64,000 bases of DNA from Moorella sp. Hama-1 (GTDB lineage Bacteria > Bacillota > DSM-521 > Neomoorellales > Neomoorellaceae). Where the stretch lies: the NCBI RefSeq assembly GCF_023734095.1, contig NZ_AP024620.1:1608501-1672500 (forward strand), written 5' to 3'. Position numbers and translations under genes: made by a program. The notes under the pieces are model-generated. The model was not told the origin of the DNA. It was given only the letters and a program-made list of their open reading frames with translations, and searched no databases. Below are positions 4,378 to 64,000 of this stretch, in pieces (position 1 is the stretch's first letter; the number at the start of each line of letters is the position of its first letter).

Positions 4378-4404
4378 TAACGCGAAATGCCTGTAAGACA
4401 TGAG

Positions 4405-4592
4405 AAGGCCGAATCCCGCAAATAATAGGGAACGGGGGAACCACCACAGGGGTGAATCCCTGCCCTCAGTCTACTTTATTGCTCTAGGTAATTCAGGGTA
4501 CTGGCGAGTAACGGAGCTGGCAGACTGGGGATGGGGTAGGGCTTGCTCCGGCCCGAACCCGGCAGCTAACCTCGCAGGCTGGAAGGGAGAGG
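4405..4592 (+). ncRNA. c-di-AMP riboswitch (ydaO-yuaA class)
   Basis: The conserved blocks of the ydaO-yuaA aptamer appear in order: AACGGGGGAACC, GGGGTGAATCC, then GGGTAGGGC, GGCCCGAACCCGGCAGCTAA and CCTCGCAGGCTGGAAGGG. A variable arm lies between the halves. Known members bind cyclic di-AMP and switch off potassium importers and osmolyte genes when the nucleotide is abundant. A rho-independent terminator follows within 25 bases, so control is probably by transcription termination. Confidence 0.95.
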
Positions 4593-4615
4593 AATTCATG
4601 GTGTTATTTTTGATG

Positions 4616-24906: not shown

Positions 24907-24927
24907 ATAAATTATAAATATCCTGGT

Positions 24928-25128
24928 ACGCTGAATTACGGCTTGGGCCGTAAACGGGGGAACCATTTCCGGGGTGAATCCCGGCCAGCAGCAGCTTTTA
25001 TTTTCCTTAAATCTTTGGGTGGATAGGCTGTCATTCAGGGATTGCCGGGGAAGGGAAGGGCTGGGCGCCGGGTAGGGCTAACTTCGGCCCGAATCCGTCA
25101 GCTAACTTCGTAAGCGTGGAAGGGAACT
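24928..25128 (+). ncRNA. c-di-AMP riboswitch (ydaO-yuaA class), second copy
   Basis: Same conserved blocks as the copy at 4.4 kb: AAACGGGGGAACC, CCGGGGTGAATCCCGG, GGGTAGGGCTAA, GGCCCGAATCCGTCAGCTAA and CTTCGTAAGCGTGGAAGGGA. The variable arm between the halves is unrelated to the first copy. It precedes trehalose biosynthesis genes, so osmolyte production and potassium uptake appear to answer to the same second messenger. Confidence 0.95.
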
Positions 25129-25168
25129 ACCGGTTAACCGGTATCGTGTTCCATGGCGTTCAAGCTAG

Positions 25169-58915: not shown

Positions 58916-59084
58916 AGTGTACCTCTGCGTCAGAAGTACCGGCTAGCCCTTTGGTAGGTAAAAAGAACCATCGCGCCGGCAGGAAATGGCCTCCCCGCGG
59001 CGAATAATATAATATTGTAGTTCCAGGCAACAACAAATTGTTAGACCAAATCAGCCAGACTACGACTTAATAAAACTTAATATT

Positions 59085-59178
59085 TACCCCCGGGGTGCCC
59101 GTGCGGGCTGAGAAGTGCCGGATAGCACTAACCCTTGGAACCTGATCTGGGTCATACCAGCGTAGGAAAGCGGGGATA
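59085..59178 (+). ncRNA. TPP riboswitch (THI element)
   Basis: The conserved blocks CGGGGTGCCC, GGCTGAGA, ACCCTTGGAACCTGATCTGG and GTAGGAAAGCGG occur in order, as in thiamine pyrophosphate riboswitches. It precedes thiC and a terminator, so binding of TPP would stop transcription. Confidence 0.97.
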
Positions 59179-59188
59179 GAGGTTTTTT

Positions 59189-59316: not shown

Positions 59317-60615
59317 ATGACGCAACTGGAAGCAGCCCAGGTGGGACAGGTAACCCGGGCCATGGAACAGGTGGCTGCCAAAGAAGGGGTAAAGGTAGAA
59401 GATTTGATGGCCGAAGTAGCCGCCGGCCGGGTGGTGATCCCGGCCAACACCAATCACCGTAACCTTCAACCCTGTGGTATTGGTAAGGGGTTAAAAACGA
59501 AGGTTAACGCCAACCTGGGAACTTCTACGGCTTATCCCGACCTGGAGCCGGAGCTAGCTAAACTCCGGATGGCCCTGGAGGCCGGGGCTGATGCCGTCAT
59601 GGATTTGAGTACCGGCGGCGATATTAACGACTGCCGGCGCCAGGTCCTCGCCCAGGCCCCGGTTGCCGTCGGCACCGTCCCTATTTACCAGGCCACAGTG
59701 GAGGCCCAGGAGCGCTATGGTGCCCTGGTAAAGATGACCGCCGATGATCTTTTCGAAGTGATCGAGGAACAGGCCGCCGACGGCGTCGACTTTATTACCG
59801 TGCACTGCGGCGTCACCCTGGAGGTAGTCGACCGCCTGCGCCGGGAAGGCCGCTTGACGGACATCGTCAGCCGGGGGGGTTCCTTTTTAACGGGCTGGAT
59901 GCTGCATAACGAACAAGAGAACCCCCTCTACGCCCAGTATGATCGCCTGCTGGCGATCGCCCACCGCTATGACGTCACCCTGAGCCTGGGGGATGGTCTG
60001 CGGCCCGGCTGCCTGGCCGACGCCACCGACCGGGCCCAGATCCAGGAACTCATTATCCTGGGTGAACTGGTGGATCGGGCCCGGGAAGCCGGGGTCCAGG
60101 CCATGGTGGAAGGCCCCGGCCATGTACCTTTGCACCAAGTCCAGGCCAATATCCTCCTGGAAAAAAGGCTCTGCCACGAGGCGCCCTTCTACGTCCTGGG
60201 CCCCCTGGTTACCGATGTCGCCCCAGGATACGATCACATTACCGCCGCTATTGGCGGTGCCCTGGCGGCCACAGCCGGGGCCGACTTTATCTGCTACGTC
60301 ACCCCGGCCGAACACCTGGGCCTCCCCACTTTGAGCGACGTCCGGGAAGGTGTCATGGCCGCCCGCATTGCCGCCCACGCAGCCGACCTGGCGAAAGGAT
60401 TGCCGGGCGCCTGGGAGTGGGACCGGGAAATGGCTCGGGCACGCAAGGCCCTGGACTGGCAACGTCAACTAGAACTGGCCCTGGATCCCGAAAAGGCCCG
60501 CCAGTATCGCCGGAATCGCAATGAGGCTGCTGCCGTTGCCTGTTCCATGTGCGGTGACTTCTGTGCCATGCGCCTGGTTGGGAAATACCTGGGGAAACCG
60601 GTAGATGAATGCTAG
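59317..60615 (+). CDS. thiC: Phosphomethylpyrimidine synthase
   Basis: 432 residues, short (anaerobe-type) ThiC. Radical SAM enzyme converting aminoimidazole ribotide to the thiamine pyrimidine. Motifs [40 protein letters not shown] and [15 protein letters not shown] are intact. The C-terminal cluster motif is [10 protein letters not shown]2CX3C rather than the CX2CX4C of long-form enzymes. GGAGG precedes ATG 59317. Controlled by the TPP riboswitch upstream. Confidence 0.97.
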
Positions 60616-60754: not shown

Positions 60755-61191
60755 TTAGGTTACACTACCGTCTCGGCTTTTGTCCAACGCTTTTTCAACG
60801 GCCAGGCGGACAATGATATTGGGATGGTTTAAATAGGAAGATAAAAATCCCCTGGCCTTCTTGGCATTAATTTTCATGAGGGCCATGGCCGCGTTTGCCT
60901 GGATATAAGGATCACGAGTACCTTTTTAAAAACCTCCTGCAACGCTGGCACAGCGGCTTCTGCTTCGGGGCCTAACATTCCCAATATCGTAATTGCCCGG
61001 AGAACCGTTTCCCGATCCCGGTGTTCCAAGGCCCAGATTAACTTATCCAGGTAAGCCTCGTTTCGGCTTTCATCCAAAAAAGCTCCACATTCCTGACACT
61101 TGGTGACGGCAATGCTATTAGGTGCGTAACATCGTGGACAAAATTTATTGATAACCAATCCCTCCTTGCCCCTTTTATCACCAGCTAACAT
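60755..61191 (-). pseudogene. Zinc-ribbon/HEAT-repeat protein with a -1 frameshift
   Basis: The first frame (from 61191) encodes a zinc ribbon (CPRCYAPN...CQECGAF) and a HEAT-like repeat ending VPALQEVF, then stops at 60874 after a run of unrelated residues. In the -1 frame the HEAT pattern continues immediately (TRDPYIQANAAMALMKINAK, HPNIIVRLAVEKALD) to a stop at 60755. The shift falls at TTTTTAAAAAGG around 60921-60932. This is a mutation, a sequencing error, or programmed slippage. It follows DUF190 by 57 bases on the same strand. Confidence 0.8.
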
Positions 61192-61248: not shown

Positions 61249-61608
61249 CTATTCAAGGTTGGGTTTGCTGGTGTTTTTAGCGCCTTCATCCCGCCAAATA
61301 ATCTCTACATCAGACACCGTTATCAGCCCCTGGGTTACCATCGTTTGCATCTGGGGCAAGACAGTAGCAATTTTGTCGGCTTGATCAACTGCCTCGACAA
61401 TCACAGGCAGGTCGTAAGAAAGCTCTATCAGCCGGGCCGAATAAATACTACGGCGTTTACCGTAGCCTTCGATACCCCGGATAACCGTAACCCCTGCTAA
61501 ACCGGCCTCCTTTAATTTTAACACCAGAGCATGGTAGAGGGTCTTTCCTTGCCACTTAACACCTTCTCCCACGTAAATTGTTAGAAGTTTGGCAGGTATG
61601 CTGTTCAT
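61249..61608 (-). CDS. DUF190 domain-containing protein
   Basis: 119 residues. Family landmarks: LLTIYVGEGVKWQGKTLYHALV, GLAGVTVIRGIEGYG, and LSYDLPVIVEAVDQADKI. DUF190 proteins are PII-like ferredoxin-fold proteins often encoded beside CrcB/Fluc fluoride channels. Here no crcB is visible, but a fluoride riboswitch-like RNA lies directly upstream. GGAGGGGG precedes ATG. First gene of the minus-strand arm of the fluoride locus. Confidence 0.9.
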   Translation of the reverse strand: MNSIPAKLLTIYVGEGVKWQGKTLYHALVLKLKEAGLAGVTVIRGIEGYGKRRSIYSARLIELSYDLPVIVEAVDQADKIATVLPQMQTMVTQGLITVSDVEIIWRDEGAKNTSKPNLE

Positions 61609-61727: not shown

Positions 61728-61812
61728 CAAAAACTCCTGTCCTTTACAGACAGGAGTCATCAGCGCTTAAGGCGCATTTTCGAGGTCCTCGGGGCCGACT
61801 CCTTGGCCCTAA
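61728..61812 (-). ncRNA. Variant fluoride riboswitch with terminator, upstream of DUF190
   Basis: On the minus strand GGGCC-AAGGAGTC-GGCCC forms the first hairpin, whose loop GGAGTC is complementary to GACTCC in the conserved 3' element CTGATGACTCC. A second stem GCGC/GCGC lies between, preceded by AAAA. The plus-strand aptamer 61973-62030 has the same layout. Deviations are loop base two (A, normally U) and an extra small hairpin CGAG-GAC-CTCG. The 3' strand ACTCCTGTC then pairs with GACAGGAGT before a T-run, a terminator that would compete with the aptamer. Confidence 0.75.
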
Positions 61813-61816
61813 CTTA

Positions 61817-61845
61817 ACTATATATTTTTTATTATTAAATGTCAA
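61817..61845 (-). promoter_or_regulatory. Promoter of the DUF190 arm
   Basis: On the minus strand TTGACA (61845-61840) is followed after 17 bases by TATAGT (61822-61817). Start would fall at or just before the first base of the riboswitch aptamer. Confidence 0.85.
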
Positions 61846-61878: not shown

Positions 61879-61907
61879 TTGACATACTAAAGGCTGGGCT
61901 GTTAAAT
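61879..61907 (+). promoter_or_regulatory. Promoter of the dynamin-like/eno arm
   Basis: TTGACA at 61879-61884, a 17-base spacer and TTAAAT at 61902-61907. It gives a leader of about 190 bases that carries the fluoride aptamer. The promoter is back-to-back with that of DUF190, only about 35 bases apart. Confidence 0.75.
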
Positions 61908-61972
61908 TTATATACGAACGGGAAGTATATCTGTACTACTTTGTTTCATGGGCATAGAGAAAAGCTGGCCGC

Positions 61973-62099
61973 AAACGGTGATGGAGTTCACCGGAAAACC
62001 ACCCGCAAGGGTTGATGACTCCTACCAAGGAGCAATTCCTGGTAGGAGAATGTGCAATTGTCCCAACTCCTACCAGGTAGAATCTGGAGGAGTTTTTTT
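61973..62099 (+). ncRNA. Fluoride riboswitch (crcB motif) with expression platform
   Basis: CGGTG-ATGGAGTT-CACCG is the first hairpin; its loop GGAGT pairs with ACTCC in the conserved GATGACTCCTACC. AAAACC and the ACCC/GGGT stem lie between them, as in known fluoride aptamers. CTCCTACCA occurs twice (62019-62027 and 62067-62075), and its complement TGGTAGGAG once between them (62040-62048). Without fluoride the first copy can pair with the complement, leaving the terminator (AACTCC...GGAGTT then seven T) to form. If fluoride holds the first copy in the aptamer, the complement can pair with the second copy and break the terminator. The 3' arm includes the GGAGGAG ribosome binding site. Confidence 0.95.
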
Positions 62100-63902
62100 A
62101 TGAGCCAGGTAAGAGAAGAATGGCAAGTAAAGGCAGTTCCCAAGGTCACAAAAGATCTACCTCTCCTTTTCCGGCAAACCCTGGAAGGTCTAAATAGCTT
62201 GGGGCCAGACTTTGCTAACGAGAGGCAAAAGATCAAGGCCTTACAAGAGCGACTTGTAAACGAACGCTTTCACCTTGCCGTTCTCGGGCAGTTCAAGCGC
62301 GGTAAAAGTACCTTTATAAACGCTCTTCTGGGCGATGAAGTGTTACCCACGGCCATCCTCCCCCTGACTGCCGTTCCCACCTTTCTTCTCTGGGGTCCCG
62401 AGGCCCGTGTACGCGTTCTCCGCCAGGAAAGCCTTCAAAAAGAAGAATTTACAGGGCAGGACAATAGGGCTTTAACTGCTTTTCTGGCGCAATTCGTTAC
62501 TGAAGCAGGGAATCCCAAAAATCATAAAAAGGTATCCCAGGTTGAAGTCTTCTACCCCTCCCCCCTTCTTCTTAAAGGAGTAGTCTTAATCGATACTCCC
62601 GGCATCGGTTCCACTTTCCGGCATAACACTGAAGCCACCCTTAACTTCCTGCCCCAATGTGACGCTGCTTTATTTCTCGTTTCGGCAGATCCGCCGATCA
62701 CCGAGGTAGAAGTGGAATTTCTGAAAGCGGTCCGTTCCAGGGTTACTCACCTTTTCTTTATTTTAAATAAGATAGACTATCTTAATAAGGAAGAAATAGC
62801 ATCTCTCTTAACCTTCATTAAAAATGTTTTGCGGGAGCAAGTTGGTATAGAAGGAGCCCCTCCCATCTTCTGCGTATCGGCCCGTCTGGGACTTGAGGCT
62901 CGCAAAACAAATGATACCACCCTCTGGAATCATAGCGGCCTGGAAGAAGTCTGGCGTTATCTTGTTGATTTTCTTGCTCGCGATAAAAACAACGCCCTGC
63001 AGGCAGCCCTGGCTAAAAAAGCCACCGATATAATTGCCGACATTATAATGCGCTTGCACCTTACCATTCGTTCCTTGGAGATGCCCCTGGCTGAACTGGA
63101 TGACCGCCTGCAAATATTTGAGAAAAAAATTCAGGAGGCTGAGCAGCAACGAGTCTTGCTGGGAGATCTCCTGGCCGGCGACCGGAAACGAATGGTGGCG
63201 TTTCTGGAAGAACAAGCTGAAACCTTACGTCAGAAGGCCCGGACTCACCTGCAAGGAATTGTCGAGGACCGTCTAGCCGGAATGGGGAACAGGTTTAATG
63301 ACAATACAATCCAGGAAACCCTGGCCAAGGTCATCCCTGATTTTTTTGAACATGAGCTCGGTGAAATGGCGCGTATTTTTGACCAGCGGGTTACCGAAAC
63401 GATGCGCCCCTACCAACAACGTGTCGATGAACTGATTGAGGCGGTGCGGAAAACAGCGGCCGAGCTTTTTGACGTTCCTTATCATGCTCCCAGTAGTTCC
63501 GGCGCTTTTGAGATGAAACGCCAGCCGTATTGGGTAACCCACAAGTGGGATTCCAGTTTTAGCCTTCTCCCGGAAGGTATATTTACCAGGCTTTTGCCAG
63601 CAGGAATACGCCGGGCAAAGATGATAAAACAATTGGGGCAACAAATTGAAGCATTAGTTTTGAACAACGTGGAAAACTTACGTTGGGCTACTTTGCAGAA
63701 TCTTGATCAAGCCTTCCGGCGTTTCGGATCCAGCCTCGATGAGCGTCTCCAAGCAACCGTCTTGGCTACCCAGGGAGCCATTCAGGCGGCCCGGTCGAAA
63801 CGCCAGGAGCAGAACCAAAACACGGTTCAAGGGATTAGCAGGTTCCGTTCCATCACCAAGGAATTCCAGGAGATCCAGGCCAAATTCAAGGCATTATATT
63901 AA
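62100..63902 (+). CDS. Bacterial dynamin-like GTPase, first gene of a fluoride-riboswitch operon
   Basis: 600 residues. GTPase motifs: P-loop GQFKRGKST at 63-71, switch threonine near 84-90, DTPG at 165-168 and NKID at 223-226, matching the dynamin superfamily. The rest is mostly helical and charged with probable coiled coil; no clear transmembrane segment was seen. Such proteins remodel membranes, but the function here is unknown. ATG 62100 follows GGAGGAG directly and the terminator T-run; a TTG frame from 62052 lies in the riboswitch and is not used. Enolase starts 21 bases downstream, implying one fluoride-regulated operon. The gene is more AT-rich than the window average. Confidence 0.92.
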   Translation: MSQVREEWQVKAVPKVTKDLPLLFRQTLEGLNSLGPDFANERQKIKALQERLVNERFHLAVLGQFKRGKSTFINALLGDEVLPTAILPLTAVPTFLLWGPEARVRVLRQESLQKEEFTGQDNRALTAFLAQFVTEAGNPKNHKKVSQVEVFYPSPLLLKGVVLIDTPGIGSTFRHNTEATLNFLPQCDAALFLVSADPPITEVEVEFLKAVRSRVTHLFFILNKIDYLNKEEIASLLTFIKNVLREQVGIEGAPPIFCVSARLGLEARKTNDTTLWNHSGLEEVWRYLVDFLARDKNNALQAALAKKATDIIADIIMRLHLTIRSLEMPLAELDDRLQIFEKKIQEAEQQRVLLGDLLAGDRKRMVAFLEEQAETLRQKARTHLQGIVEDRLAGMGNRFNDNTIQETLAKVIPDFFEHELGEMARIFDQRVTETMRPYQQRVDELIEAVRKTAAELFDVPYHAPSSSGAFEMKRQPYWVTHKWDSSFSLLPEGIFTRLLPAGIRRAKMIKQLGQQIEALVLNNVENLRWATLQNLDQAFRRFGSSLDERLQATVLATQGAIQAARSKRQEQNQNTVQGISRFRSITKEFQEIQAKFKALY

Positions 63903-63923
63903 CTATAAGAAAGGGGACTATGT

Positions 63924-64000
63924 ATGAAAGGTAAAATCGTATCTATTCGCTCATTGGAAGTCCTAGACTCCCGCGGCAACCCTACACTTCGGGTTTATGT
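63924..64000 (+). CDS. eno: Enolase, N-terminus only (cut by window edge)
   Basis: The visible 25 residues, MKGKIVSIRSLEVLDSRGNP onward, are the conserved enolase N-terminus. Enolase interconverts 2-phosphoglycerate and phosphoenolpyruvate and is inhibited by fluoride together with phosphate and Mg2+. Fluoride riboswitches are known to precede eno in some bacteria. ATG 63924 has AAGGGGA upstream. An out-of-frame ATG at 63920 stops within five codons. Confidence 0.95.
   Translation, partial: MKGKIVSIRSLEVLDSRGNPTLRVY

Follow-up and report, generated by a model that had tools for sequence, protein, structure and literature searches.

A fluoride riboswitch precedes a dynamin-like GTPase gene in Moorella, a pairing that recurs across bacterial families

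We analysed a 64,000-nucleotide stretch of the Moorella sp. Hama-1 genome (G000:C1:1608501-1672500), called the window below, at the end of which a fluoride aptamer is followed by a dynamin-like GTPase gene and the start of an enolase gene. The features on the forward strand are:

61879..61908, + strand: promoter-like TTGACA-18-TAAATT with TG before the -10, upstream of the aptamer (2 found against 2.1 expected by chance; a lead only)
61968..62031, + strand: fluoride riboswitch aptamer (RF01734), full-length cmscan match at 55.6 bits
62019..62048, + strand: first hairpin, aptamer 3' strand with UGGUAGGAG, predicted by minimum-free-energy (MFE) folding; needs an open pseudoknot
62038..62077, + strand: candidate antiterminator or anti-sequestor of 11 bp, CCUGGUAGGAG (62038-62048) with CUCCUACCAGG (62067-62077), inferred from folds of transcripts ending at 62078-62089
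62065..62099, + strand: second hairpin, AACUCCUACCAGG..CUGGAGGAGUU plus a T7 run, ending at the ATG; predicted terminator that would bury the Shine-Dalgarno site (MFE fold)
62086..62092, + strand: Shine-Dalgarno site GGAGGAG, within the second hairpin (unpaired probability 0.002 in the free fold)
62100..63902, + strand: dynamin-like GTPase, 600 aa, with GQFKRGKST, DTPG and NKID motifs and a tip loop at about 457-500; PF00350 (Dynamin_N), E 1.6e-28
63924..64000, + strand, continuing to genome position C1:1673701: start of eno, the second, fluoride-locus enolase (complete 425-aa gene at L007:3424-4701)

The fluoride aptamer of the original prediction proved real, with its start at 61968 and not, as had been proposed, five bases later at 61973. 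The covariance-model match covers model positions 1-64 (E 1.1e-12), and its 55.6 bits compare with a gathering score of 34. Both pseudoknot strands (GGAGU at 61983-61987 with ACUCC at 62018-62022), the core U7 and the 3' UGAUGACUCCUAC are present. The reading frame behind the aptamer is open from 62052 to 63902. We rejected GTG 62052 as the start, since it falls within the expression platform, in favour of ATG 62100, which has the GGAGGAG site and an ATGAGC start conserved among Moorella orthologues. The Dynamin_N match from this ATG agrees with the earlier assignment of a dynamin-like GTPase directly after the aptamer.

The GTPase stop codon ends at 63902 and the eno ATG lies at 63924, leaving the 21-base gap first noted. 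This eno is one of two in the genome. Both are full enolases, and the fluoride-locus copy is closer to the enolase of an Omnitrophota riboswitch operon with the same gene order (81% identical) than to the housekeeping enolase at C1:274125 (63%). A second enolase at a fluoride locus was also observed in G138, G164 and G310; G004 and G009 have one enolase. Enolase is a known associate of fluoride riboswitches, and enzyme replacement under fluoride is a known theme (PMC11139923). The second enolase fits such replacement and would restore capacity lost to Mg-fluoride inhibition. The suggestion that enolase is under fluoride control is supported and sharpened, since the gene is a dedicated second copy and not the housekeeping one.

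To describe how the leader might switch, we compared its folds with those of related leaders. The expression-platform hairpins (62019-62048 and 62065-62099) overlap the aptamer 3' strand. In G017, G260 and L011 the counterpart of the first hairpin runs straight into a T run, and this pairing of the aptamer 3' strand with a T-run-ending strand (G260, G017) is the usual ON-switch terminator. The second hairpin is kept in three Moorella relatives and G019, and the ACUCCUACCA strand occurs twice in the Moorella copies and G019. When the transcript was stopped before the Shine-Dalgarno arm and the pseudoknot strands were blocked, the 11-bp antiterminator had a probability above 0.99; it also formed at that length without the block, since its energy is near that of the first hairpin. 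For the complete leader with the block, the second hairpin (-41.8 kcal/mol) leads the antiterminator (-37.8 kcal/mol) by 4, and without the block the terminator leads by about 10 kcal/mol. We therefore rejected simple minimum-energy ON/OFF folding: the block alone leaves the terminator closed at equilibrium, and the antiterminator appears in truncated transcripts only. Since the second hairpin is favoured at equilibrium, an ON mechanism must be kinetic or need ligand energy outside the model. The folds make ON switching by fluoride plausible, and it is probably kinetic. Fluoride would close the pseudoknot of the aptamer and so free the UGGUAGGAG strand, which would capture the second hairpin's 5' arm during transcription of that hairpin; the terminator/Shine-Dalgarno hairpin would then fail, so that GTPase and enolase are made.

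The surroundings of this unit form a fluoride island. We found six RF01734 matches in the genome, each leading a fluoride-type gene or a decayed one; three lie within 9 kb beyond the window end. Apart from the aptamer before the GTPase gene, these loci comprise:

60874..61191, - strand: small zinc-ribbon plus HEAT protein, 105 aa (Pfam assignment on a family member; family in 6 fluoride loci)
61249..61608, - strand: DUF190 protein, 119 aa, PF02641 E 2e-35, PII-like fold match; a usual crcB companion
61744..61817, - strand: divergent variant aptamer (core U7 to A, extra J1/2 stem) with overlapping terminator, leading DUF190, 150 bases from the GTPase aptamer; RF01734 32.9 bits, E 1.2e-5, just below gathering
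61817..61845, - strand: promoter-like TTGACA-17-TATAGT for the DUF190 unit, 11/12 matches
L007:4740-4821, + strand: aptamer leading a decayed DUF6062 gene, just after eno
L007:9768-9843, - strand: aptamer leading an MFS transporter, then two MutS domain-V ATPases
L007:11611-11669, - strand: aptamer leading a CPA2 Na+/H+ exchanger and UspA
C1:526581 (L008): aptamer leading a crcB pair, then DUF190

The zinc-ribbon plus HEAT protein is probably part of the DUF190 unit, and DUF190 occurs in 13 fluoride loci. The original prediction saw no crcB or CLC-F gene beside the GTPase. This is true of the window for crcB but misleading for the locus, as DUF190 with its own aptamer adjoins, the regulon continues beyond the window and C1:526581 carries a crcB pair. 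A CLC gene was found only at C1:1941627 in this genome, and no riboswitch match lies near it. In Moorella sulfitireducens (L009 and G004:C12, which are one contig), crcB-crcB adjoins the same riboswitch-dynamin unit.

Three of the aptamers (61744-61817 -, L007:9768-9843 - and L007:4740-4821 +) score below the Rfam gathering threshold. Position U7 is T in 67 of the 74 extracted aptamers and A in these three variants and four other Moorella copies. The variants also have an altered P1 closing pair with compensation and an extra stem in J1/2, and they still lead fluoride genes. A model derived from them (R1) gave nine strong matches in five Moorella-group genomes and one weaker match in G017; the nested RNAalifold structure for R1 disagrees with the pseudoknot fold, and the matches are read as sequence similarity.

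Several further observations concern these loci and the window. The decayed DUF6062 gene (PF19538; L007:4870-5200 +) lies 1 kb beyond the window end behind its own riboswitch. DUF6062, a Cys-containing family, is intact in G009 (L078:9797-10624), is present in 14 of about 48 fluoride loci and looks like another unlisted fluoride-regulon gene. The MutS domain-V pair (L007:5149-8183 - and relatives) carries no other Pfam MutS domains, and its members occur together in 12 fluoride loci. Genes for membrane-type (proton-pumping) pyrophosphatases, recognised by eye from sequence, are present in five fluoride loci (L086, L088, L092, L097 and L103). The window also holds two c-di-AMP riboswitches (4397-4596 + and 24919-25131 +) and a TPP riboswitch (59081-59188 +) that leads a thiC-like gene (59317-60615).

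Next, we determined how often dynamins and fluoride riboswitches are linked. RF01734 and Dynamin_N were searched in the same set of 299 genomes of the phylum. After merging two-headed genes we counted 82 Dynamin_N genes, of which 28 have a fluoride riboswitch no more than 7.2 kb away. If placement were random, about 0.2 would be expected to do so (binomial P about 5e-51, for genomes that are related and not independent). The 28 linked dynamins come from about 15 families; in 14 cases the dynamin is the first gene, on the same strand, with its Dynamin_N domain starting at most 270 bases past the aptamer. Four more Dynamin_N genes share a contig with a riboswitch at a distance of more than 500 kb, and the remainder share no contig with one. 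Viewed from the riboswitches, a dynamin is present in 27 of 129 loci, and it is therefore a common fluoride gene in the phylum. The companions of dynamin across loci are CrcB, DUF190, CPA2, Usp, MFS, the MutS-V pair and Eno.

The link also shows clade structure. A tree of the GTPase domain, whose deep forks are weak, accounts for the riboswitch label with 5 changes, where shuffled labels take 19.3, and riboswitch-linked dynamins gather mainly in one clade. Nine unlinked rows fall in the riboswitch-linked part of the tree, among them L083, which stands beside CPA2-Usp at a contig end, and five distant long-branch dynamins. The riboswitch-linked proteins L097-L100 form a second, smaller clade; they are about 560 aa long and have a strongly hydrophobic LLWFFFPMFIF tip.

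Beyond the phylum, where a search of 14 Omnitrophota genomes returned one match, the Omnitrophota contig L010 has the order riboswitch, dynamin (50%), eno (81%), MFS, CPA2 and Usp, which includes the riboswitch-dynamin-eno order that the original prediction had marked for a survey. In two genomes of the Ignavibacteria group (Ignavibacteriota) the aptamer lies directly before the dynamin (L011, L141). We discarded the idea of a shared small partner gene, since those that follow the dynamin in L010 and L011 gave no significant similarity. Plasmid carriage was discarded too: three distant plasmid dynamins match at 30-35% along roughly one third of the protein, and none is a full-length relative. 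Among Moorella relatives, G001, G003, G005, G006 and G010 gave no GTPase hit and G002 a fragment; since several relatives have no intact copy, the GTPase is accessory. Fluoride control of the GTPase and enolase, as first proposed, is supported at the level of sequence by the recurrence of the link in about 15 families and two other phyla, and the GTPase almost certainly belongs to the fluoride regulon.

We then asked what kind of protein the riboswitch leads. An AlphaFold2 model built from a 32-member alignment has a mean pLDDT of 82.9, and its best Foldseek match among solved structures is BDLP (E 7.1e-22), followed by IniA. VIA-align of the model gave mitofusin 1 (MFN1) at Z 29.8 over 340 residues and IniA at Z 24.5 over 518. 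The model has helical neck and trunk bundles with the N and C termini close together, and 518-540 of its residues align to IniA and BDLP; as modelled, the protein is a complete dynamin-type machine and more than a GTPase domain alone. In the family alignment, DTPG and both the K and the D of NKxD never vary, and P500 hardly does; it belongs to a short LLP loop located at the tip of the trunk. This loop occupies the place of the BDLP paddle and of the membrane-binding loop of IniA (PMC6715688). It is at the expected tip place in many family members, is mildly hydrophobic and in several is not the top segment; it is not a clear transmembrane paddle. By its position, the loop may bind membrane.

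Taken together, we give a probability of about 0.6 to the reading that the locus is a fluoride-induced operon, a dynamin-like GTPase gene followed by a second enolase gene, within a fluoride-resistance island, and that the GTPase belongs to a membrane-remodelling clade. Fluoride crosses the membrane as HF, and the membrane gradient is needed for its export (PMC11139923); a membrane-tightening protein would therefore make sense. The GTPase would bind the cytoplasmic membrane via its tip loop, and GTP-driven assembly would remodel or seal it. The membrane would thereby remain tight and energised during the inward leak of HF, to the benefit of Fluc channels and antiporters that depend on its gradient. 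The action of the protein would resemble that of IniA or DynA, and the stress inducing it would be fluoride. We regard this membrane-maintenance role as having an even chance of being correct.

The main alternative, which is possible but doubtful, is that the GTPase serves as a scaffold or assembly partner that clusters or stabilises the transporters of the regulon (CPA2 antiporter, Fluc, MFS). Dynamin mostly adjoins CPA2-Usp or crcB-DUF190 (L068, L079, L083, L085, L087, L090, L091, L095, L086, L088), as this would predict; however, in L011, L089 and L071 it follows the riboswitch by itself, without any adjoining transporter, so that none of the transporters is its constant partner. A further reading, that fluoride acts on the GTPase itself, by trapping of the GDP-AlF4/BeF3 type or by Mg-F binding, and that the riboswitch raises the dose of the enzyme, is improbable. 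The same logic applies to the enolase of the operon (PMC11139923), dynamin crystal structures with GDP-AlF4 exist, and MutS-type ATPases share the regulon. Yet the gene is absent from many genomes, which argues against an essential activity needing compensation, and 22 Dynamin_N genes in riboswitch-bearing genomes are unlinked.

We also give little credence to the view that the gene is a passenger of a mobile fluoride island and encodes a general envelope-stress dynamin that contributes nothing specific to fluoride tolerance. Island genes are indeed shuffled and sometimes decayed (the DUF6062 remnant; dynamin fragments in G002 and G019), but dynamin is first behind the aptamer in those 14 cases while its neighbours differ, and the pairing spans the families and further phyla described above. 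An anti-phage dynamin of the Leo type was dismissed, as the PADLOC LeoA profile match (E 2.8e-22) reflects the general kinship of bacterial dynamins, whereas the locus has no LeoB/LeoC partner gene, eno is the next gene, the other neighbours are fluoride genes, and a single gene is under fluoride-riboswitch control.

To our knowledge, most bacterial dynamins have no known trigger or job. Here the riboswitch names the trigger of a dynamin clade, and its role is therefore directly testable by adding fluoride. As the pairing recurs in many unrelated bacteria, membrane remodelling has probably been overlooked in microbial fluoride survival. Whether this clade is a dedicated fluoride-tolerance machine, and membrane remodelling a standard arm of the fluoride response across several phyla, we consider evenly balanced. 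If so, the membrane itself would be a main site of fluoride/HF damage, and remodelling would stand as an added arm alongside export, pH control and enzyme replacement, of which the response has been thought to consist. The clade would also offer new candidate genes for organisms engineered for fluorinated compounds.

The literature that we searched gave no link between dynamin and the fluoride riboswitch; the 2012 primary survey, including its supplement, lay outside that search. The only co-mention of CrcB, fluoride and dynamin was an unrelated cancer study, which we set aside. The pairing and the clade appear undescribed so far, while the riboswitch and the protein superfamily are each known. 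Reviews list as fluoride-riboswitch genes Fluc/CrcB, CLC-F, Na+/H+ antiporters, enolase, pyrophosphatase, MutS, formate hydrogen lyase and others (PMC11139923, PMC2864571). The Moorella locus shares with this regulon the RF01734 aptamer and the enolase, antiporter, MutS and CrcB companions, and differs in the dynamin-like clade, DUF6062 and the zinc-ribbon HEAT protein, which these reviews do not name. Bacillus DynA, which gathers at sites of membrane damage (PMC8844932), and cyanobacterial BDLP, the top Foldseek match, likewise combine a GTPase with a helical neck and trunk. However, DynA joins two heads in one protein of about 1200 aa, with no gene of this type near a fluoride riboswitch in our sample, and BDLP has a hydrophobic paddle. 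Mycobacterial IniA is drug-induced and carries out membrane fission, and preserving membrane integrity is its proposed role (PMC6715688). It differs from the Moorella GTPase in sequence (about 18% identity) and in its inducer, which is cell-wall drugs and not a fluoride riboswitch, but resembles it in its fold over the 518 aligned residues, in its induction by stress, which is probable for the Moorella protein, and in a trunk-tip loop in place of a transmembrane paddle.
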